64,000 nt of DNA from Peribacillus asahii (GTDB lineage Bacteria > Bacillota > Bacilli > Bacillales > DSM-1321): the NCBI RefSeq assembly GCF_004006295.1, contig NZ_CP026095.1:4762183-4826182 (forward strand). The letters run 5' to 3'. Position 1 is the stretch's first letter. The number at the start of each line of letters is the position of its first letter. The notes below the pieces were generated by a model that did not search any database, had not been told where the DNA came from, and was given only the letters and a program-made list of their open reading frames with translations. This document shows positions 23,735 to 33,025 of this stretch, one piece after another. Position numbers and translations under genes: made by a program.

Positions 23735-24395
23735 TTCCCCACACCACCTTTAAATATTTTGGTTCTTTCGGGTTGATTTCTATTTTTTCTCTGATTTTTC
23801 TTATATGAACGGCTACCGTATTCTCCGGATTAACAGGTGTTTCATTCCATACCTTCTGATAGATCTCCTCTATAGAAAAAACTCTCCCAGCATTGACAGT
23901 CAAAAGCTTTAATATTTTATATTGTACCGGTGTAAGATGAACTGCCTCTCCATCAACAGTGATTACTTTACTTTCATCATCAATGATAAGTCCCCCAGTT
24001 TGATAGACATGGTTCTTGGCTTCAAGGCTTCCCAATGTGGTATACCTTCTTAGCTGTGACTTCACTCTTGCTATGAGCTCTAAAGGATTAAATGGTTTGG
24101 TGATATAATCATCTGCTCCTAAATTTAATCCTAATATCTTATCATAATCCTCAGACTTGGCAGAAAGCATAATCAACGGTATTTTATTGTCTTCTCTGAT
24201 TTTCATAGTAGCTGTTATGCCGTCCATCTTAGGCATCATAATATCCATAATAATCAGATGGATCTCATGATCTTCGATTATTTCGATAGCCTCTATTCCG
24301 TTAGACGCTTTGAGAACTTTATAACCTTCATTTTCTAAGTAAATTCCTATAGCATCTACAATGGCCTTATCATCATCACAAACTAATATATTCAT
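23709..24395 (-). CDS. OmpR/PhoB-family response regulator
   Basis: 228 residues. Receiver domain with acidic pocket CDDD (6-9), phospho-acceptor Asp51 in LIIMDIMMPKMDG, Ser/Thr in IMLSAKSED and Lys in DYITKPFNP, followed by a winged-helix DNA-binding domain (HLTPVQYKILKLLTVNAGRV, WNETPVNPENTVAVHIRKIR). It resembles VanR-type regulators. It forms an operon with the downstream kinase. The target genes are not evident; nearby candidates would be its own operon. Confidence 0.93.
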   Translation of the reverse strand: MNILVCDDDKAIVDAIGIYLENEGYKVLKASNGIEAIEIIEDHEIHLIIMDIMMPKMDGITATMKIREDNKIPLIMLSAKSEDYDKILGLNLGADDYITKPFNPLELIARVKSQLRRYTTLGSLEAKNHVYQTGGLIIDDESKVITVDGEAVHLTPVQYKILKLLTVNAGRVFSIEEIYQKVWNETPVNPENTVAVHIRKIREKIEINPKEPKYLKVVWGIGYKVEKL

Positions 24396-24528
24396 AAAAA
24401 TTCACTCCTGTATATGAATCGGAACATATGATATCACTCCTATTATTTATTCGTTTAAGGTAATGATACCAATTAAATCTTAATAAACTCCGGGTATAAA
24501 TCTTAAGATTTTCTTAGTATTAAAAAAA

Positions 24529-24547
24529 GCCCGCGTTAAGCGGGCTA
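24529..24547 (-). terminator. Strong minus-strand terminator, probably the original rlmH terminator
   Basis: AGCCCGC and GCGGGCT form a G+C-rich stem; on the minus strand it is followed by TTTTTTTAATAC. No minus-strand gene lies between it and rlmH 8 kb away. It lies 66 bp outside the outermost copy of the rlmH 3'-end repeat, exactly where an rlmH terminator would be before insertion. Confidence 0.8.
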
Positions 24548-24612
24548 ATGAAAGTTAATCCTATTATAATAATTTGTTCCCCAGAATCCTTATAAAGGCG
24601 GTAAAACTGCCG

Positions 24613-24633
24613 CTATTTATGATACGGTTCACC
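24613..24633 (+). repeat. att-like direct repeat, outer (distal) copy of rlmH 3' end
   Basis: Twenty-one bases identical to the last 21 bases of rlmH (32150-32170), in the same orientation, with core TTATGATACGGTTCACC. On the minus strand it reads as the rlmH codons for GEPYHK plus stop, but no rlmH gene is here. It is the presumed left end (attL) of inserted DNA. Confidence 0.85.
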
Positions 24634-24654
24634 TTGTTATATCTAAATATTTCA

Positions 24655-24683
24655 TTGACAACCTATTAAAGGAGATTTACATT
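24655..24683 (+). promoter_or_regulatory. Sigma-A promoter of the siderophore operon
   Basis: TTGACA (24655-24660) and TACATT (24678-24683) are 17 nt apart. The start would fall inside the Fur box. Confidence 0.7.
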
Positions 24684-24686
24684 AAT

Positions 24687-24705
24687 GATAGTGATAATTA
24701 TTATC
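24687..24705 (+). promoter_or_regulatory. Fur box
   Basis: GATAGTGATAATTATTATC matches the 19-bp Fur consensus GATAATGATAATCATTATC at 17 positions and overlaps the transcription start. Iron-replete repression by Fur is expected. Confidence 0.88.
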
Positions 24706-24737
24706 AACTATTCTTATATTAAGAAAGGATATACAAA

Positions 24738-25811
24738 ATGATTACAAAACAAAAAATATCATTATTCTTAACATTACTAATTGTGATGCTTATGATTGCA
24801 TTAGCCGGTTGTTCAAGTGAGCAAACAGATAAAAAATCTGAAGCAACTTCAACTGAAGAATCTAATAAGAAAACAGCGGAATCCGAGGAAACAACAACTG
24901 AATATCCAATTGTGATTAAACATGCACTTGGAGAAACGACAATTGAAGAAAAACCTGAACGCGTTGTTACTATTCAATGGTCAAACCATGACGTTGCTCT
25001 TGCTCTTGGTGTTGTGCCTGTAGGTTTTTCAGCTGCAAACTATGGTGTTCAAGATGATAGCGGAATGTTACCTTGGACTGCAGATAAATTAGAAGAACTT
25101 GGTGCAGAAACGCCAACTATTTTCCAAGATACTGACGGTTTAGATTTTGAAGCAATTGCTGACGCTAATCCAGATGTTATTCTTGCAGCATACTCAGGTA
25201 TTACTCAAGAAGAATATGATACATTAAGTGAAATTGCTCCAGTTGTTGCCTATCAAACTAGCCCTTGGGTAGCTTCATGGCGTGAACAAGTTACGTACAA
25301 TGCAATGGGTATAGGGATGGAAAAAGAAGGTAAACAACTTATTGCCGATACAGAGAAACTAATTGAAGAAAAAGTAAATGAACACTCTGAAATTAAAGGT
25401 AAAAAGGCTGCATTCGTAAGTATTAGTGCCGATGATTTATCTAAGTTCTACATCTACACACCAGAAGATCCACGTGGTGCATTCCTTTCTGAGTTAGGGA
25501 TGGAATACCCTGAAAGTATTACAAGTCAAATCACTGATCCAAATAGTTTCTATATGGAAGTAAGTGCTGAAAATGCAGATATGCTTAACGATGCTGAGAT
25601 TTTGGTATCATATGGTAACAAAAATACACTTGCAGCTCTACAAGCTGATCCAATCCTTGGAAAAATCCCAGCGGTAGAGAGAGGTTCTGTCGTAATTATT
25701 GGAGATAATACTCCACTTGCAGCAGCAGGAACTCCAAGCCCACTTTCAATTGAATACTCAATTGACGAGTACTTAACTTTAATCTCAGAAGCCGTTAGCA
25801 AAGTTCAATAA
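24738..25811 (+). CDS. Ferric-siderophore ABC transporter, substrate-binding lipoprotein
   Basis: 357 residues. A lipoprotein signal peptide ends in the lipobox IALAGC (Cys25), followed by a Ser/Glu/Thr/Lys linker and a class III (FecB/TroA-like) binding fold with VIKHALGETTIEEKPERVVT, then DFEAIADANPDVILAAYSGI, the usual hinge-proximal motifs. It binds an iron-siderophore outside the membrane and hands it to the FecCD-type permeases encoded next. It resembles B. subtilis YfiY/FeuA-class proteins; the siderophore is not identifiable. AGAAAGGATAT precedes the ATG. Confidence 0.93.
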   Translation: MITKQKISLFLTLLIVMLMIALAGCSSEQTDKKSEATSTEESNKKTAESEETTTEYPIVIKHALGETTIEEKPERVVTIQWSNHDVALALGVVPVGFSAANYGVQDDSGMLPWTADKLEELGAETPTIFQDTDGLDFEAIADANPDVILAAYSGITQEEYDTLSEIAPVVAYQTSPWVASWREQVTYNAMGIGMEKEGKQLIADTEKLIEEKVNEHSEIKGKKAAFVSISADDLSKFYIYTPEDPRGAFLSELGMEYPESITSQITDPNSFYMEVSAENADMLNDAEILVSYGNKNTLAALQADPILGKIPAVERGSVVIIGDNTPLAAAGTPSPLSIEYSIDEYLTLISEAVSKVQ

Positions 25812-25812
25812 G

Positions 25813-26847
25813 ATGAATCATACATCCGTTTCAGAAAATAAGCAGTTACTTTTACCGAAAAACTTCATAAAAGTTCTTATACTTTCTATTGTCTTACTCG
25901 GTATATGTGTATTGGCTTCTCTTGCTTTTGGATCCCGTACAGTTGGATGGAATGAACTAATGGATGGCCTATTCCATCCTGAAGTACAGTCCCACGGAGC
26001 AAATGTGGTTCGCCAAAGAATTGCTAGAACTGTCTTTAGTTTGATGTGTGGTGCTGCATTAGGAGTTTCTGGGGCTCTAATGCAATCAGTTACTCGTAAT
26101 CCTATCGCAGACCCTAGCATTTTAGGAGTTAATACAGGGGCAGCACTATTCGTCGTTTGCGGAATTTCCTTTTTTAATATGGGTACTGCTAGTCAATACG
26201 TTTGGCTTGCATTAGCAGGAGCAATCGTAACTGCCATTGTTGTATTCGGAATTGGTTCAATGGGGAGTGGCGGTGCCACGCCCCTTAAACTTGTTTTAGC
26301 AGGTGCTGCTACGAGTGCTGCATTATCATCTCTCGTAATGGCCATTATGATTCCTCGCTCTAACGTTATGGATCAATTTAGATTTTGGCAGGTAGGTAGT
26401 GTTGGAGCAGGGGATTGGAGCTCTATCTCTCTTTTTATTCCCTTTCTTATTGTTGGAATATTAATAGCCCTATTCACTGCCCCAGCACTCAATGCATTAG
26501 CATTAGGTGATGAAGCAGCTACAGGATTAGGTGTACGTACAGGAACACTTAGGCTTGTTTCTGCCTTTGGAGGAGTGCTGTTGTGCGGTACAGCAACAGC
26601 ACTCGCAGGTCCTATTGGCTTTATAGGTTTATTAGCAACACATGTGATTCGACTCGTTATTGGTCCTGATTTACGATACATTATCCCAATGTCAGCGTTA
26701 TCAGGTGCCATTATATTAACCATATCAGATGTATGCGGTCGGATTTTAGGAAGTCCTGGTGAGCTTGAGGTTGGTGTAGTTACAGCATTTATTGGGGCTC
26801 CTATTTTAATCTTAATAACTATGAAAGCGAAAATGCGTGCGTTATGA
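25813..26847 (+). CDS. FecCD-family siderophore permease, first subunit
   Basis: 344 residues with about nine to ten membrane segments. RQRIARTVFSLMCGAALGVS and ALMQSVTRNPIADPSILGVN are the FecCD signature; the loop DEAATGLGVRTGTLRL contacts the ATPase. It begins one base after the stop of the binding protein and overlaps the next permease gene by 4 nt, so the two permeases are made together and form a heterodimer. Confidence 0.93.
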   Translation: MNHTSVSENKQLLLPKNFIKVLILSIVLLGICVLASLAFGSRTVGWNELMDGLFHPEVQSHGANVVRQRIARTVFSLMCGAALGVSGALMQSVTRNPIADPSILGVNTGAALFVVCGISFFNMGTASQYVWLALAGAIVTAIVVFGIGSMGSGGATPLKLVLAGAATSAALSSLVMAIMIPRSNVMDQFRFWQVGSVGAGDWSSISLFIPFLIVGILIALFTAPALNALALGDEAATGLGVRTGTLRLVSAFGGVLLCGTATALAGPIGFIGLLATHVIRLVIGPDLRYIIPMSALSGAIILTISDVCGRILGSPGELEVGVVTAFIGAPILILITMKAKMRAL

Positions 26848-27875
26848 TAAATGAATCTATGAATCTTATAATGATAGGTAGAATGAAAAGACGTCGCCGT
26901 TTTATCCTCGTGACTTCTTTGCTTGCAATCATTGCCTTTGCACTTTGCTCTACGATGCTTATGCTAGGAAACACGATTTATCCTGTTTCAGATGTCATAA
27001 GGGTTCTACTAGGTGAGAAAGTGAAAGGTGCATCTTTTGCAGTGGGAACGATACGTTTTCCTAGAATGGTGGCAGGTGTTTTGGCTGGATTTGCTTTTGG
27101 TGTTGCTGGACATGTATTTCAAACGATGCTTCGTAACCCCCTAGCAAATCCAAATGTTATCGGAATAACAGCTGGTTCAAGTGCTGCTGCTGTTTTTTGT
27201 ATCATCGTTCTTCATGCAAGTAATGCCTTTGTTTCTATTGCTTCTATTATTGGTGGACTTGCTACAGTAATCGTTATTTTTCTATTATCAAGAAGTACTT
27301 CCTTTTCAATTGGTCGATTAATATTAATAGGAATTGGCATTCAAGCCATGCTAAATGCTGCCATATCTTATTTATTACTTATCGGTCAGCAACATGATAT
27401 TCCTACTGCCATGAGATGGCTCAGTGGCAGTCTAAACGGTGCTAAAATGGAAAATCTTTATCCTCTTATGGTTACAGTACTTATTTTCGCACCCATTATC
27501 ATTGTTCTCGGAAAACGATTGGATATGTTAGAACTTGGGGAGCAAACAGCAACTTCACTTGGAGTTGATACTGATAAAACACGACTTGTACTTATTATTA
27601 GTTCGGTACTTATCATTGCTTTAGCTACCGCTGCAACAGGACCTATCGCATTTGTTGCGTTTCTTTCTGGACCTATCGCAAAAAGACTAGTTGGTGTCGG
27701 GTTTTCAAGCATTATCCCAGCAGGTCTTGTTGGCATCATTTTAGTTTTAGCATCAGATCTTGTAGGACAATTTGCATTCGTTGCTAGATACCCTGTAGGT
27801 GTTATTACAGGCATTCTTGGAGCACCATACTTGATCTACTTGCTAATCCGAATGAATCGAAAGGGGGATTTATAA
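26844..27875 (+). CDS. FecCD-family siderophore permease, second subunit
   Basis: 343 residues. TIRFPRMVAGVLAGFAFGVA and TMLRNPLANPNVIGITAGSS are the family motifs, with EQTATSLGVDTDKTR as the coupling helix. It partners the preceding permease. Its start codon overlaps the previous stop (ATGA). A second in-frame ATG lies 5 codons on and further ones follow, so the exact start is uncertain by a few residues. Confidence 0.92.
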   Translation: MINESMNLIMIGRMKRRRRFILVTSLLAIIAFALCSTMLMLGNTIYPVSDVIRVLLGEKVKGASFAVGTIRFPRMVAGVLAGFAFGVAGHVFQTMLRNPLANPNVIGITAGSSAAAVFCIIVLHASNAFVSIASIIGGLATVIVIFLLSRSTSFSIGRLILIGIGIQAMLNAAISYLLLIGQQHDIPTAMRWLSGSLNGAKMENLYPLMVTVLIFAPIIIVLGKRLDMLELGEQTATSLGVDTDKTRLVLIISSVLIIALATAATGPIAFVAFLSGPIAKRLVGVGFSSIIPAGLVGIILVLASDLVGQFAFVARYPVGVITGILGAPYLIYLLIRMNRKGDL

Positions 27876-28690
27876 TGAAACCAACACATGCTTTTCAAAC
27901 TAAAGGAATCACTGCTGGATACGATAATAAAACGATTTTACATGATGTAAGTCTTTCAATTCCAAGTAATAAAATAAGCATTATTATTGGTTCAAACGGT
28001 TGCGGTAAATCTACATTACTTAAAACGATGGCTAGGCTTATTAAACCTACTTCCGGGCAAGTGACCTTGGGAGGGAAACCCATTTATAAAATACCACCAA
28101 AGCAGTTGGCTCGTGTATTAGGTCTTTTGCCTCAATCCCCTATTGTCCCTGAGGGAATAACTGTTGCGGATTTAGTTGGACGAGGAAGGTATCCACATCA
28201 AACATTTCTAAAAGGTTGGACAAAAAAGGATTATGAAGCCGTTGCAGAGGCAATGGAAATCATGAACATCACGGAATTTGCCGATCGACATATTGACGAG
28301 CTTTCAGGCGGTCAAAGACAGCGTGTATGGATTGCTATGGCTCTGGCACAACAAACAGACATACTATTTCTCGATGAACCAACAACTTATTTAGATATTA
28401 CCTATCAAGTCGAAATTCTCGACCTGCTAACAGACCTTAACCGAAAATACGGAACAACCATTGTCATGGTTCTTCATGATATCAACCTGTCAGCACGTTA
28501 TGCAGACCATATTTTTGCTTTGCATAACGGAAAGCTTGTCGCTGAGGGAGAGCCCTCAGAGGTTATTACAAGTACATTGATTGAAGATATTTTTGGACTC
28601 CATTGTAACGTAATAAAGGACCCTGTTTCGGACTCTCCTTTTATGGTACCAATCGGGCGACATCATAATAAATTAAGAATGTATTCTTAA
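27875..28690 (+). CDS. Siderophore ABC transporter ATP-binding protein
   Basis: 271 residues with Walker A GSNGCGKSTLL, Q-loop LLPQSP, signature LSGGQRQRVWIAMALAQQ, Walker B ILFLDEPTTYLD and switch His in MVLHDINLSARYADH, all as in FepC/FhuC-type ATPases. It overlaps the permease stop by one base and is the last gene of the operon. No clear intrinsic terminator follows; a weak stem without a T-run lies at 28728-28761. Confidence 0.94.
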   Translation: MKPTHAFQTKGITAGYDNKTILHDVSLSIPSNKISIIIGSNGCGKSTLLKTMARLIKPTSGQVTLGGKPIYKIPPKQLARVLGLLPQSPIVPEGITVADLVGRGRYPHQTFLKGWTKKDYEAVAEAMEIMNITEFADRHIDELSGGQRQRVWIAMALAQQTDILFLDEPTTYLDITYQVEILDLLTDLNRKYGTTIVMVLHDINLSARYADHIFALHNGKLVAEGEPSEVITSTLIEDIFGLHCNVIKDPVSDSPFMVPIGRHHNKLRMYS

Positions 28691-28790
28691 TAAAGACTAG
28701 TATTTTTCTGCACAGCAATTTTCCGTATAGGTCGTGGAAAGGATTTACTTCTCATGACCTATGACGGACTTACGGGCCTATGCTTCTCAT

Positions 28791-28811
28791 TTACTTATGA
28801 TACGGTTCACC
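28791..28811 (+). repeat. att-like direct repeat, middle copy
   Basis: The 17-bp core TTATGATACGGTTCACC (28795-28811) is identical to the other two copies; the four bases before it differ at two positions. It separates the siderophore insert from the heme insert, as expected for two cassettes inserted in tandem at one site. Confidence 0.85.
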
Positions 28812-29129
28812 GCATCGACTTAACTAGCGGTTTTTTACAACCCCTTATAAAAAAGAAGCTTTAATTTAAAAACATACTTTGGAGATGTTACACCCGCCTA
28901 TTCCGCCAATCCCATCAACACTAATGGTTGCTGCACATCTGGAGCTAAGAAAACAACTCATGAATTGATTTTTTGAGAGGGTTCAAAAAGACGGCTTCAC
29001 TCGTCGTTTACTTAAGATAGGGAGATTAAAACTTTCCCTCTATAGTTGTTGGTAAGCCCTCAATTGACTACAAATAAAATATACGAGAAAATATAAGACA
29101 AGAGATAATAGCAGAAAGGGCGGATCTCA
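28812..29129. other. Intergenic region inside insert 2
   Basis: About 320 bp before the PadR gene. A 27-codon frame at 28884-28967 (MLHPPIPPIPSTLMVAAHLE...) follows GGAG at only 2 nt and is probably not a gene. A short stem around 29020-29050 is weak. The PadR promoter should be here, but I see no good -35/-10 pair. Confidence 0.4.
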
Positions 29130-29651
29130 ATGGAACAACGCTCGCTTATTTTACTTGGATTACTCATGAGTCAAAGTCAACATGGATACCAAATCAATGA
29201 ATTTATAGAGAGAAATTTAAGTGCAGTTACCGATATGAAAAAACCTACCGCTTATGCAACTTTAGATAAACTCAGTCAAAACGGATATATTGACATTCAG
29301 TTGGAGCAAGAAGGAAACAGACCGACCCGAAAAGTGTACTCCATAAATGATAGTGGCAAGCAATATTTTTACCAATTATTATTGAATAATTTATCTTCAG
29401 CTGAAAGGGTGAATTATCAAGGAGATATTGGATTAATGTTTATTGATTTTCTCCCTTTAGAAAAAACAATACCTGCATTGGAAGAACGTTTAAACAATAG
29501 TAAGAAATTATTAGAAGTCATGAAACAAACCCCATCCCACGGAGTAAGATCTGGAGTCAATCTTGCAGTAGAACACAAAATTACCATGTTAGAAGCAGAG
29601 GTTGCATTTCTTGAAAAGTCCATAAGAAATCTTTCTCTTTATTCGGAATAA
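29130..29651 (+). CDS. PadR-family transcriptional regulator
   Basis: 173 residues: an N-terminal winged helix (LILLGLLMSQSQHGYQINEF, MKKPTAYATLDKLSQNGYID) and a C-terminal dimerisation part rich in helices (residues 95-173). AGAAAGGGCGG precedes the ATG. Two TTAGTCA palindromes flank the promoter of the following exporter, so it probably represses that operon. In other bacteria HrtBA exporters are controlled by HssRS or a TetR-type regulator; a PadR regulator beside such genes would be a different sensor, possibly of heme. Confidence 0.88.
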   Translation: MEQRSLILLGLLMSQSQHGYQINEFIERNLSAVTDMKKPTAYATLDKLSQNGYIDIQLEQEGNRPTRKVYSINDSGKQYFYQLLLNNLSSAERVNYQGDIGLMFIDFLPLEKTIPALEERLNNSKKLLEVMKQTPSHGVRSGVNLAVEHKITMLEAEVAFLEKSIRNLSLYSE

Positions 29652-29675
29652 TTCTTCTACAGTAGTGTTAAATTC

Positions 29676-29706
29676 AAGGAAACCTTGTTAATAGGTTTCC
29701 TTTTCC
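29676..29706 (+). terminator. Terminator after PadR gene
   Basis: AAGGAAACC (29676-29684) pairs with GGTTTCCTT (29694-29702), followed by TTCC and a T-rich tract. Confidence 0.8.
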
Positions 29707-29743
29707 TATTTATACATTATAAAATCCGCCACCCTGCCCTTAA

Positions 29744-29809
29744 TTAGTCACGATTGACTAATCATAAATATAATAATATAATCATATTAAATTAGTCATC
29801 ATTGACTAA
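29744..29809 (+). promoter_or_regulatory. Exporter promoter flanked by two PadR-type operators
   Basis: TTGACT (29754-29759) and TATAAT (29777-29782) are 17 nt apart, a strong promoter. The palindrome TTAGTCA-N4-TGACTAA occurs at 29744-29761, covering the -35 box, and at 29792-29809, at the start region. The centres are 48 bp apart, so two dimers could clamp the promoter. Confidence 0.8.
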
Positions 29810-29836
29810 TCATATTAATTTAAGGGAGGATTTCCA

Positions 29837-30958
29837 TTGTTTCTGGCTTTAAAAGAATTAAAACATGGCAAATTTCGTTTTCTTATGATTGGAATCATAA
29901 CCGTCCTTATTGCTTGGCTAGTCTTTATCCTATCAGGTTTAGGAAATGGGCTTTCCACACTAAGCGCCGCAACATTTAAAAATATGAAAGCAGATTACGT
30001 TACTTTTGAGGAAGGATTTAGAGCCTCGATGAGCCGTTCACTATTAACTGAATCATTCGTGGATGAACTAGAAAAGCAAGATAATGTTTCCTCAGCAGCA
30101 CCGATGGGAGCCACAATGGCTACGGTTTTAAAATCAACTCCTTCCAAAGATAGTGAAAAAGTAGATATTGCTATTTTAGGTATCACTGCGGGAAGTTTTT
30201 TAGAACCAAGCATCATTGAAGGAAACCCTCTCAATAATGATAAATCACTAGAAGTTATCGCTAATGACACCTTAAAAGATAAAGGATTTAAAATTGGAGA
30301 CACACTCTCAATAGAAGGGTCTCTAGAGAAAATGAAAATTATTGGATTTGTAGAAAATGAAACATACAATCATTTACCCGCTATTTTTACTACACTAGAT
30401 AAATGGCGCTCAATTCAGTTTGCAGCACCTGGTTCTGATAATAGTATTAAAAATCCAGTGAATGGTATTATGCTTCAAGGAGAAGATATTGATCCGCAGA
30501 AATTAAATGATCTTTTCCATAACACAGAAACAGTAACAAAGGCTGCGGCGATACAAGGAATGCCTGGATATAAAGAGGAAAATGGCACGATTATGATGAT
30601 GTTGGCCTTCCTTTTAGCAATCTCAGCCTTTGTACTAGCTGTCTTCTTTTATGTACTTACCTTGCAAAAATCCAATCAATTTGGCATTTTAAAAGCGATT
30701 GGTGCAAGTAATGCTTTTTTAGGCAAAACAATTATGTCACAAGTATTTCTACTTTCATTCATTAGTATTGTTGTTGGAATACTCTTAACATATGGAACAG
30801 CTTTAATTCTTCCAGATGGAATGCCATTTTCACTAGATATTAAACTTGTCGTCATTTATGCTATTTTATTGCTAGTTATATCAATATTAAGCTCGCTGAT
30901 TTCCATTCGTAAAATTACAAAAATAGACCCACTTCAGGCAATTGGGAGGATAGAGTAA
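29837..30958 (+). CDS. ABC transporter permease, HrtB-like (FtsX/MacB fold)
   Basis: 373 residues starting at a TTG, 6 nt after AGGGAGGA. FLALKELKHGKFRFLMIGII is a TM1 with the same pattern as HrtB of S. aureus. A large extracytoplasmic domain (about 40-245) is followed by three membrane segments with FFYVLTLQKSNQFGILKAIG and a C-terminal KIDPLQAIGRIE, both matching HrtB-type permeases. HrtBA extrudes heme from the membrane. The next gene encodes the ATPase and the third an IsdG-type heme oxygenase, which supports a heme role. The assignment is by pattern, not by alignment. Confidence 0.82.
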   Translation: MFLALKELKHGKFRFLMIGIITVLIAWLVFILSGLGNGLSTLSAATFKNMKADYVTFEEGFRASMSRSLLTESFVDELEKQDNVSSAAPMGATMATVLKSTPSKDSEKVDIAILGITAGSFLEPSIIEGNPLNNDKSLEVIANDTLKDKGFKIGDTLSIEGSLEKMKIIGFVENETYNHLPAIFTTLDKWRSIQFAAPGSDNSIKNPVNGIMLQGEDIDPQKLNDLFHNTETVTKAAAIQGMPGYKEENGTIMMMLAFLLAISAFVLAVFFYVLTLQKSNQFGILKAIGASNAFLGKTIMSQVFLLSFISIVVGILLTYGTALILPDGMPFSLDIKLVVIYAILLLVISILSSLISIRKITKIDPLQAIGRIE

Positions 30959-31656
30959 TGTCAGGAATAAAGTTCAATCATGTATCTAAATACTATCAAC
31001 AAGGGGCAAATCAAGTTGTTGCTCTTAATGATGTTTCTCTTTCCGTCGAACAAGGAGAATTTATTGCCGTCATCGGTCCCTCAGGTTCAGGTAAAAGTAC
31101 TTTTCTTTCCATCGCAGGGGCCTTACTACAAGCCTCAGAAGGGGAAGTAAACCTGAATGGAAAAGTAATAGGGGATTTAAAAGAGAAAGATTTATCAAAA
31201 GTACGCCTTGAGGAAATAGGGTTTATATTACAAACAAGCAATCTAATTCCTTACTTAAATGTTCTCGACCAATTACTGGTTGTAAAAAAAATGGCTGGTA
31301 AAGTGACAAAAAGAGATAAAGAAACTGCTAAAGAATTACTTCAAAATCTCGGATTGGAAACAAAAATGAAAAAACTCCCGGAACATTTATCTGGAGGAGA
31401 ACGTCAACGTACAGCTATCGCTCGTGCCTTTATGAATAATCCTTCGATTATTTTGGCTGATGAACCAACGGCAAGCCTCGATACTCAAAGAGCCCATGAG
31501 GTCGTCCAACTTATTGCGAGGGAGGTGAAATCTAGAAATAAGGCAGCCATTATGGTGACCCATGACGAACGAATGCTAAAATACTGTGACAAAGTATATC
31601 GAATGGAAGACGGTAAACTTAAGCCGACTAGTTTTCATTTAGAAAATCTAAAATGA
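30958..31656 (+). CDS. ABC transporter ATP-binding protein, HrtA-like
   Basis: 232 residues with Walker A GPSGSGKSTFLS, Q-loop FILQTSNLIPYLNV, signature LSGGERQRTAIARAF, Walker B IILADEPTASLD and switch His VTHDERM. This is the LolD/MacB/HrtA class that pairs with FtsX-fold permeases. The ATG overlaps the permease stop by one base. It energises the exporter and lies 19 bp before the heme monooxygenase gene. Confidence 0.92.
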   Translation: MSGIKFNHVSKYYQQGANQVVALNDVSLSVEQGEFIAVIGPSGSGKSTFLSIAGALLQASEGEVNLNGKVIGDLKEKDLSKVRLEEIGFILQTSNLIPYLNVLDQLLVVKKMAGKVTKRDKETAKELLQNLGLETKMKKLPEHLSGGERQRTAIARAFMNNPSIILADEPTASLDTQRAHEVVQLIAREVKSRNKAAIMVTHDERMLKYCDKVYRMEDGKLKPTSFHLENLK

Positions 31657-31675
31657 CAAGCAGGGGGAATAATCA

Positions 31676-31996
31676 ATGATTATTGTAACAAACAGAATTA
31701 AAACGAAATTAGGTTTTGCTGAAAAAATGGCTCCAATGTTCACAAGACCAGGTGCCTTACAGAAAATGGATGGTTTTGTAAAAGTTGAAGTATTAATTAC
31801 TAAAAACCTTTCAGAATATGATGAGCTCAATGTAAATATGTATTGGAACACTATGGAAGACTTTGCCCAATGGCAAAACAGCGATGCTTTCAAAGAAGCC
31901 CATAAAGGCCCAACTAATGGTGGACAAGATTCACCTATCTTGGGAAGTGAAATCATTATTTCTGAGGTTGCTTCGACTTTAGAATCAAATACATGA
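31676..31996 (+). CDS. Heme-degrading monooxygenase (IsdG/HmoB type)
   Basis: 106 residues, an antibiotic-biosynthesis-monooxygenase (ABM) ferredoxin-like fold. The IsdG catalytic triad is present at matching spacing: Asn6 (VTNRIK), Trp66 (FAQWQNS) and His76 (FKEAHKGP), compared with N7, W67 and H77 in IsdG. These enzymes open the porphyrin ring of heme, releasing iron. It is the third gene of the exporter operon, so the island could both pump out and break down heme. CAGGGGGAA precedes the ATG. Confidence 0.85.
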   Translation: MIIVTNRIKTKLGFAEKMAPMFTRPGALQKMDGFVKVEVLITKNLSEYDELNVNMYWNTMEDFAQWQNSDAFKEAHKGPTNGGQDSPILGSEIIISEVASTLESNT

Positions 31997-32050
31997 TGAC
32001 CTTTTTTGGTAACTTATAGTCAGTTCCTCTGGCACACTAGACAAAATAGG

Positions 32051-32095
32051 TAGGCTAAACAAGTATGTCATAAATAATAAATCTTGTTTAGCCTA
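32051..32095 (+). terminator. Terminator after heme monooxygenase
   Basis: TAGGCTAAACAAG (32051-32063) pairs with CTTGTTTAGCCTA (32083-32095), followed by a weak T-tract. Confidence 0.7.
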
Positions 32096-32149
32096 TACCT
32101 TTCTACAAATCTTCCGATCCATCAATGGAATTCATGTAAAAGACCGCCT

Positions 32150-32170
32150 CTATTTATGATACGGTTCACC
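32150..32170 (+). repeat. att-like repeat at the rlmH 3' end (attR)
   Basis: The last seven codons of rlmH (encoding GEPYHK and stop) form this copy. On the minus strand GAACCGTATCATAAAT parallels the staphylococcal SCC attachment core GAAGCATATCATAAAT. Part of the similarity comes from the conserved RlmH C-terminus; the repetition at 24613 and 28791 does not. Confidence 0.88.
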
Positions 32171-32629
32171 CCTCATAATCCGAAACGCTCGGTATACTTG
32201 TTCTACCAAAATTAATCTCATGAGCTGATGCGGGAATGTCATTTTGGAGAAAGAGAGTGCTTCATCCGCTCGCTTCATAACCGCTGCACTTAATCCGAGT
32301 GATCCGCCAATAATAAAGGCCACTTTGCTTTTACCATAGGTACCAAGCTTTTCAATTGTATCTGCTAATTCTTCTGATGTTTTCATTTTTCCTTCAATTG
32401 CTAGTGCAATAACATGTGCATCTGGGTTAATCTTAGATAGGATCCGTTCCCCTTCTTTCTCTTTAATTTGAAGCATTTCTACATCGCTTAATGTTTCTGG
32501 AGCTTTCTCGTCCGGTAATTCAATAATATCGACTTTGGCATAGGCCGTTAATCGTTTTAAATATTCATCAATCCCCTGTTTTAAATATTTTTCTTTCAAT
32601 TTCCCAACTGTAACAATCGTTATATTCAT
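32150..32629 (-). CDS. rlmH: 23S rRNA (pseudouridine-1915-N3)-methyltransferase RlmH
   Basis: 159 residues, the family length, from the ATG at 32627-32629 with GTGAGGATAAAA upstream; the longer frame beginning at a GTG overlaps that site. Motifs: [44 protein letters not shown] (SAM-binding trefoil knot) and the C-terminal [20 protein letters not shown], then GEPYHK. It methylates Psi1915 in helix 69 of 23S rRNA. Its 3' end is the integration site of SCC elements in staphylococci and appears occupied here as well. Confidence 0.97.
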
Positions 32630-32722
32630 TTTTATCCTCACTTTACAAACAGGTTAAGAACAGGTTATCCACATAACTTATCCACATATCCACATTATTC
32701 ATCCACATCTTGTATAAGAATA

Positions 32723-32884
32723 TTAGTTCGCCACCATATATATTGCGCTATTTCGACAATATTCACAGGTTGTTGATAATTGTTTTTCCTCTGCTACACT
32801 CGTTAAATTAGGGTATGTTTCACACTCATATACAATTTCATCTAGTGCCATTTCAACATGTTCTTGACAACAATACAGTACCAT
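32723..32884 (-). CDS. CxxH/CxxC small protein upstream of rlmH
   Basis: 53 residues with CQEH near the N-terminus and CEYC near the C-terminus, a zinc-binding pattern of the small CxxH/CxxC family encoded upstream of rlmH in many Bacillales (yyzF-like). AAAGGAGAG precedes the ATG at 9 nt. Its function is unknown. It probably shares a transcript with rlmH. Confidence 0.82.
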   Translation of the reverse strand: MVLYCCQEHVEMALDEIVYECETYPNLTSVAEEKQLSTTCEYCRNSAIYMVAN

Positions 32885-33025
32885 TCGTTTCGACTCTCCT
32901 TTTTGTGCATAAGTTGCTCATACTATTTATCCACAAACTATATCCTTTCATTTCAACCTCTTTTTTATCCACAGTTATCGTAACAGATTCCTAAAAAAGC
33001 GCAAGTAATCACAATAGCTTTTATG

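Follow-up and report, generated by a model that had tools for sequence, protein, structure and literature searches.

What has placed three copies of the end of rlmH, all in one orientation, around two small groups of genes in the chromosome of Peribacillus asahii? The locus lies in a stretch of 64,000 nucleotides (contig NZ_CP026095.1 of assembly GCF_004006295.1, positions 4,762,183 to 4,826,182 of the forward strand), which is called the window here, and coordinates without a contig name are those of the window. A first-pass annotation had read the locus as two stacked cassettes, inserted at rlmH by an integration system related to that of the staphylococcal cassette chromosome (SCC) and analogous to pseudo-SCC elements. 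From a comparison of the window with genomes of its genus, family and order, we conclude that the two inserts, cassettes A and B, are very probably non-autonomous SCC-type cassettes (pseudo-SCC units) that would be moved by an enzyme resembling the cassette chromosome recombinases (Ccr), acting in trans, and would belong to a pool shared among Bacillales.

Two inserts bounded by copies of the rlmH end

The exact 17-bp sequence TTATGATACGGTTCACC was found at 24617-24633, 28795-28811 and 32154-32170, always on the + strand, and these were its only matches in the 64 kb window even when up to three mismatches were allowed. A chance origin of the repeats was ruled out by a shuffle control (100 shuffles), which gave 0.10 matches on average and one at most. 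The observation that had started the analysis, namely that the rlmH tail recurs in direct orientation, was confirmed, with 21 of 21 bases identical between 24613-24633 and 32150-32170. The middle repeat at 28791-28811 was confirmed as well; its 17-bp core is identical, and only four outer bases distinguish copy 2 from copies 1 and 3 (TTAC instead of CTAT). Rfam had no match in 24000-33000 at E 0.1, and a known structured RNA was dropped as the identity of the repeat.

The three copies lie in att-type sites, which were scored with the profile R1 described below. Site 1 (24601-24657, + strand, E 5.9e-9) forms the distal end of cassette A, site 2 (28779-28835, + strand, E 3.6e-9) lies between the cassettes, and site 3 (32138-32170, + strand, E 1.3e-5) lies in the 3' end of rlmH, the putative docking gene (32150-32641, - strand), which matches the NCBIfam RlmH model above its cut-off and ends in GEPYHK*. 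The crossover dinucleotide TC would be at 24629-24630 in site 1, 28807-28808 in site 2 and 32166-32167 in site 3. Cassette A (24634-28794) measures 4161 bp and cassette B (28812-32149) about 3340 bp. Their genes are on the + strand, opposite to rlmH as first noted, and no recombinase was seen among the window's open reading frames (ORFs) when their translations were read by eye.

Two types of half-site could be told apart by eye. Site 1 joins a left half of type II (aaactgccgctat) to a right half of type I (ttgttatatctaaatattt), site 2 joins a left half of type I ('ttctcatttac') to a right half of type II ('gcatcgacttaactagcggtttttt'), and the left half of site 3 is of type II ('ccgcctctat'). 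Both ends of cassette A are type I halves and those of cassette B are of type II, which is the arrangement to be expected had A entered beside B. The left half of site 1 would then be the displaced downstream flank of rlmH.

The nearest relative compared, P. asahii MA001 (G021), has an RlmH 99% identical to that of the window. Both cassettes are present in it, A on contig C35 with 96% identity and B with 97%, downstream of the same two-component gene pair, but the order is B-X-A instead of A-B, where X is other DNA. The homology of A and B between the two genomes ends within 32 bp of the cores. This permuted order, together with the recurring site-bounded modules described below, supports the proposal of two stacked pseudo-SCC-like cassettes.

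A directional site and its cassettes

The sites share a 54-bp consensus, AAAACCTCATTTACTTATGATACGGT-TC-ACCGTAACGNATCTAAATGAGGTTTT, which is its own reverse complement at most positions and has TC/GA at its centre. Forty-eight sites aligned without gaps, with a mean column identity of 79% over 57 bp. Profile R1 was trained on these 48 sites, which came from 17 of the 43 family genomes, which makes the counts in those genomes circular in part; neither the three window sites nor any site of G021 was used in training. CcrAB has been reported to require a central GA (PMC10581047), and one C in the motif TATCATAA has been reported to be essential (PMC6222049). This C is present in all three window copies, and the TC centre and the base matching the essential C were each kept in 128 of 135 sites.

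A search for the core in 36 genomes of the genus, with one mismatch allowed, returned 123 matches, compared with 4 for the reversed pattern. Eighteen of the 123, the TTATGATACGGTTCAGC matches (TTCAGC form) that occur once per genome in 18 genomes, were rejected as sites because they lay in a conserved coding frame in all six loci inspected; from reading these by eye we take the frame to be purB. With R1, sites were found in 42 of the 43 family genomes (E 0.01), the richest carrying 29, 21, 20, 17 and 12, and in 151 of 299 genomes of the order (E 1e-6). The genome of the window itself has 18 sites at E<=0.1, 16 of them below 0.001, and three of the 18 are in the window. A strict exact pattern was found in 55 stretches, 54 of them in records titled Bacillota. 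The remaining one is in a metagenome-assembled genome labelled Lutibacter (L164), where the site stands at the very end of a contig, and this record is probably a contaminant. Seven profile sites in one direction form a second array in the window's chromosome, at C1:2183863-2209749 (L059, L060). G021 (L245) has flanking genes similar to those of this array, and one cassette is common to both.

The sites are strongly polar. In the stretches read, 63 pairs of adjacent sites within 10 kb had the same orientation and none the opposite, which fits directional site-specific recombination, unlike scattered repeats. At a greater distance, contig C22 of G002 has one reversed site that lies 25 kb away from two other sites. 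When sites with like arms were folded, 6 of 6 formed strong hairpins (z -3.6 to -6.8). A few mirror-image sites (L134:10368, L155:2969, and L261 and L262 near 21750) are almost fully palindromic, their left half being roughly the reverse complement of the right. The first-pass annotation had counted a wide occurrence of the repeat away from rlmH as evidence against its own reading. Taken literally, such a wide occurrence was found, yet the additional copies are directional sites of the same type and bound the same kind of cassette, so that the reading is extended rather than refuted.

Sites away from rlmH still resemble its coding sequence. At 112 such sites, 76 of 105 left-half changes from the consensus affected the four bases that are wobble positions in the rlmH reading frame (p 3.6e-16, a value that assumes independent sites and is too small, because sites of related genomes are not independent). 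Synonymous changes accounted for 69 of 102 changed codons, compared with 6 of 36 possible single changes, and E-P-Y-H was still encoded at 83 of the 112 sites. The simplest reading of this pattern is that cassette ends would regularly act as the terminus of rlmH, although a recombinase preference with the same spacing may also produce it.

We defined a cassette as 700-9000 bp between consecutive sites of the same direction. The resulting 55 segments measured 1.1-8.4 kb and carried one to six ORFs each, counted from a minimum length of 110 aa. Among these 129 ORFs, phmmer searches with two serine recombinase queries found no serine recombinase. Larger elements, including those that bear Ccr, are outside this set by construction, and both the size range and the absence of a recombinase hold for these 55 segments only. 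The cargo is diverse: a Pfam scan of 95 of the 106 de-duplicated cassette ORFs matched 152 families, 132 of them by one protein only. ORFs were called by a simple script, and many gene names in the compared loci were assigned by eye. Arrays of several cassettes at rlmH were found in G010 (up to six), G029, G009, G032, G115 and G221. In G005 (L148:1061-14186), an rlmH insert of about 13 kb encodes very large proteins and by eye has the look of a defence island.

Cassettes have moved between genera with their ends at the sites. A 2.52-kb cassette of G002 with a LysR-type regulator and a transporter recurs in G012, G422 and Heyndrickxia ginsengihumi (G076), and the copies are 95.6-97.7% identical to that of G002 over their full length. 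In about 1 kb outside the copies, blastn found no flank match (E 1e-3). The rlmH genes of the hosts are only 67.2-75.6% identical at the nucleotide level in five of the six host pairs compared. The cassette occupies the rlmH region in G422 and G076 and other addresses in G002 and G012. Similarly, G010 and G009 share a 1.11-kb cassette with 94% identity end to end, which G010 carries in a non-rlmH array and G009 in its array at rlmH; a 1.52-kb cassette is 99.6% identical between these two genomes. In G422 (L153 near 2745), the 2.52-kb cassette breaks off within the core at one end, where TTATGA is followed by unrelated DNA, which looks like the trace of a deletion that took half the site.

In the window, cassette A carries a siderophore-type Fe3+ ABC transporter. 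It consists of a substrate-binding lipoprotein (24738-25811; NCBIfam NF008200, E 3.9e-27), two Fe3+-siderophore permeases (25813-26847, E 4.7e-80, and 26844-27875, E 2.2e-66) and an ATPase (27875-28690, E 3.3e-94), each matched below the curated cut-off of its model. Matches below the cut-off also point to a PadR-type regulator (29130-29651, E 1.3e-10), a MacB/FtsX-type ABC permease (29837-30958; ADOP-family permease, E 1.7e-7) and an ABC exporter ATPase of the LolD/MacB class (30958-31656, E 2.5e-62) in cassette B. The fourth gene of B encodes a haem oxygenase (31676-31996; NF009840, 160.5 bits against a cut-off of 119). All eight genes are on the + strand, and an iron/haem theme runs through both cassettes (24738-31996), with siderophore uptake in A and haem oxygenase in B.

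The candidate recombinase and competing explanations

Genes of the ccr type were searched for in the genomes of the family and the order. The search suggested by the first-pass annotation gave little in the window's own genome, where the best match to the CcrB model reached only 115 bits, was XisF-like and lay 2.4 Mb from rlmH; across the order, Ccr-like genes do lie close to such sites, which supports the idea that an SCC-related integration system uses rlmH. The XisF-like large serine recombinase of the window's genome (532 aa; L062:5914-7512; C1:2417916) lies about 7 kb from a weak site at C1:2426616 (E 2.1e-4). Among the 43 family genomes, CcrB-model matches of at least 290 bits were found in three, G036 (two matches), G015 and G421. 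The Ccr-like enzymes fall well short of the 900 bits set as the cut-off for staphylococcal CcrB, with 447 bits at best.

The link between enzyme and site was examined with 45 CcrB-like loci above 300 bits from order genomes numbered up to G326. Sixteen were in genomes with a listed site, 14 were in genomes that matched but whose places were unlisted, and 15 were in genomes not listed with a match; 37 of the 45 were checked. A site was present within 30 kb of 15 of the 16 loci in genomes with a listed site (for two of the 16, both in G036, the nearby sites had been in the R1 training set). Twenty-one further loci were read in 20 stretches, and a profile site was found in 19 of these (all but G218), the weakest being L327 and L315 (best E 0.0018-0.0072) and L332 (best E 0.0011). 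In 16 of the 20 stretches, the distance between the site and the end of the match to the CcrB model, calculated by subtraction, was 52-211 bp. The rlmH gene was recognised in 13 of the 20, and many of their sites were the rlmH end itself. The enzyme gene often lies directly at the rlmH junction, which is where an element with an integrase of its own would be expected to have it. Overall, the raw count was 35 of the 37 checked loci with a site within 30 kb, often directly adjacent. The Ccr link in the added loci raised our confidence in the proposed explanation slightly and lowered that in another enzyme to a similar degree.

Two Ccr-bearing elements were read more closely. The one in G036, which ends at L160:12798, encodes its Ccr-like enzyme together with a PolA-family polymerase and a P4/D5-type primase-helicase. 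The other, 16.4 kb long, separates rlmH from the 2.52-kb cassette in G076.

From these data we propose that each cassette is bounded by half-sites of a serine-recombinase att site, whose TC/GA crossover would fall within GAA among the C-terminal codons of rlmH (GGT-GAA-CCG-TAT-CAT-AAA). The cassettes would be excised and inserted by a large serine recombinase resembling Ccr, which passing autonomous SCC-like elements would supply in trans. Insertion would exchange the last rlmH codons and the stop codon for the copies at the cassette end, so that the protein would stay intact and the next cassette could stack. The cassettes would form a shared and reshuffled Bacillales pool, stored as arrays both at rlmH and at further addresses in the chromosome. 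Catalysis by Ccr in trans, circular intermediates and rlmH as the regular docking point are the parts of this scheme that we infer.

Relatives gave an indirect view, at best, of an rlmH junction without inserts. The first-pass annotation had called for an empty site in close relatives, and no clean empty version of the junction was found; the nearest case is a group of 21 of the 43 family genomes with an altered site. In these, rlmH ends in NEPYHK and an rlmN-like gene is the first downstream ORF, 59-82 bp away (in G024, where the ORF is shorter, 196 bp). GEPYHK stands at this place in the remaining 22 genomes, none of which has an rlmN-like gene among the first two ORFs; in G019, about 10.3 kb separate rlmH from the rlmN-like gene. 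RlmH of the NEPYHK clade of Peribacillus (e.g., L161, L267-L275, L300-L310), which has no rlmH insert, is 68-70% identical to that of the window. The 21 genomes look like one lineage and therefore count as one natural experiment, not 21.

Several observations weigh against the scheme of Ccr-moved cassettes. Window sites 1 and 2 have mismatched arms, a type I half being joined to a type II half, and form no hairpin. Homology between the left flanks of the window and G021 stops 90 bp before site 1, and most of the A and B junctions in G021 lack a recognisable core, so that site-specificity is not claimed for every event there. At the non-rlmH address of G012, the genome G026, which lacks the island of about 9.4 kb, is joined about 50 bp from the core and has no empty core; G030 shares the flank and the site of this address and has other DNA beyond. 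Two of the 37 checked loci had no site within 30 kb as read (G171, with one at 41 kb, and G218, with none within 10 kb). The array-rich genomes G010, G009, G029 and G021 had no CcrB-model match at E<=1e-25, which is why we infer that visiting elements act in trans, and G009 and G021 hold other large serine recombinases. Finally, the second ORF beyond rlmH is a haem-oxygenase-like gene in 19 of the 21 genomes without an insert, so that cassette B may in part be a long-standing neighbour of rlmH.

The last observation leads to the possibility that cassette B is largely ancestral chromosome beside rlmH and that A alone was inserted. The haem-oxygenase-like ORF of the rlmN-adjacent genomes encodes 109-123 aa, and cassette B carries such a gene; however, all four B genes stand elsewhere in the array of G021 with 97% identity and with ends near the site positions, and we consider this origin of B unlikely. 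We attach the same low probability to a single larger SCC-like element that lost ccr and left A and B as decayed remnants, not independently mobile. The absence of a recombinase at the locus and the degenerate junctions round the same genes in G021 would agree with decay, and composite and pseudo-SCC elements are known in staphylococci, with a tandem composite reported in another Bacillota (PMC10061031). Yet A and B are separately bounded and occur in reversed order with other DNA between them in G021, and other small cassettes recur singly, with exact ends, at new addresses.

The enzyme might also be another one, either a tyrosine recombinase or a serine recombinase such as the XisF-like protein at C1:2417916. 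The window's genome contains this protein and no strong Ccr, and the other large serine recombinases of some array-rich genomes point the same way. In favour of Ccr instead, 35 of 37 checked loci have a Ccr-like gene linked to a site, and the same is indicated by the agreement of the core with SCC and Enterococcus cassette chromosome (ECC) sites, including the base reported to be essential (PMC6222049); another enzyme is therefore improbable, even more so than decay or an ancestral B. Least probable of all, with hardly any weight left, is that the 54-bp site is a dispersed terminator-like repeat, or one resembling a miniature inverted-repeat transposable element, and that homologous recombination shuffled the blocks between copies. 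Full sites do form strong hairpins, but the 63-to-0 orientation bias, the mean identity of just 79%, the wobble signature in a core made of rlmH codons, the linkage to Ccr-like genes and the lack of an Rfam match all disagree with such a repeat.

Relation to known elements and biological meaning

The window inserts share with SCC and pseudo-SCC elements the target at the rlmH 3' end, the direct repeats of the last rlmH codons, the central GA, the tandem stacking and, with the pseudo forms, the lack of a recombinase. An insertion at the rlmH 3' end with direct repeats, a dyad att site with central GA (in the consensus) and an association of Ccr with this type of site were all found here. No ccr gene is inside the elements, so they are not autonomous SCC but pseudo-SCC-like. 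In contrast to SCC, many of the units are of operon size (1.1-8.4 kb, with a spacing below 9 kb), up to six stand in an array at rlmH, further chromosomal addresses are used with up to 29 profile sites per genome, and array-rich genomes are without a CcrB-model match.

Islands with Ccr-type enzymes at rlmH outside Staphylococcus, including a tandem composite, have already been published (PMC6222049, PMC10061031, PMC10581047), and the window locus alone is therefore a further case of a known type of insertion. ECC elements also target rlmH and have att sites of about 50 bp with inverted repeats and the TATCATAA motif, but they are described as 21-78 kb long with ccrAB and with fewer than five att matches per genome (PMC6222049), whereas the window inserts measure about 3.3 and 4.2 kb and have no ccr. 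The PolA-SSB islands of Bacillota have ends that match the rlmH end and encode a large serine recombinase and a D5-type helicase, and one tandem composite is named (PMC10061031); the Ccr-bearing element of G036 (L160) resembles them. These islands encode a polymerase and a recombinase, and the available sections of that paper do not describe recombinase-less arrays or rlmH-type sites elsewhere. Peribacillus and Neobacillus are absent from its main text. CcrDE islands in rimL (PMC10581047) are Ccr-type islands outside rlmH, but they differ in target gene and direct repeat.

The arrangement of the arrays is also like that of integrons. Chromosomal (super)integrons are arrays of recombinase-less cassettes with diverse cargo, whose palindromic sites stand in one orientation. 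The likeness concerns the arrangement, and no dedicated search for IntI or attC was made. The site here differs in being an rlmH-derived serine-recombinase att, and the cassettes carry one to six ORFs on either strand. On balance, we lean slightly towards regarding the system as a serine-recombinase counterpart of the integron, in which operon cassettes bounded by palindromes would be collected in one-directional arrays by a transient Ccr in trans. In such a system, the final codons of this rRNA methyltransferase would come from the cassette nearest to rlmH, and for that reason the sites would be constrained by the RlmH coding sequence even off rlmH. An earlier description of recombinase-less cassette arrays in Bacillales was not found among the titles and abstract starts returned by searches of the open-licence PMC literature, which is weak evidence. 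What appears to be new is the integron-like scale, with small cassettes that lack a recombinase arrayed both at rlmH and at other places, exchange between genera and the wobble signature.

SCC elements have been studied mostly as carriers of resistance in staphylococci. In the present arrays, which belong to environmental Bacillales, the same kind of site organises everyday genes for metabolism, transport and regulation. A cassette 96-98% identical in hosts whose rlmH genes are 67-76% identical suggests a general route of operon exchange, and this raises the question of whether one Ccr enzyme assembles and shuffles recombinase-less cassettes in the fashion of an integron. The cassette pool of Bacillales is a plausible background from which the composite elements of staphylococci may have arisen.

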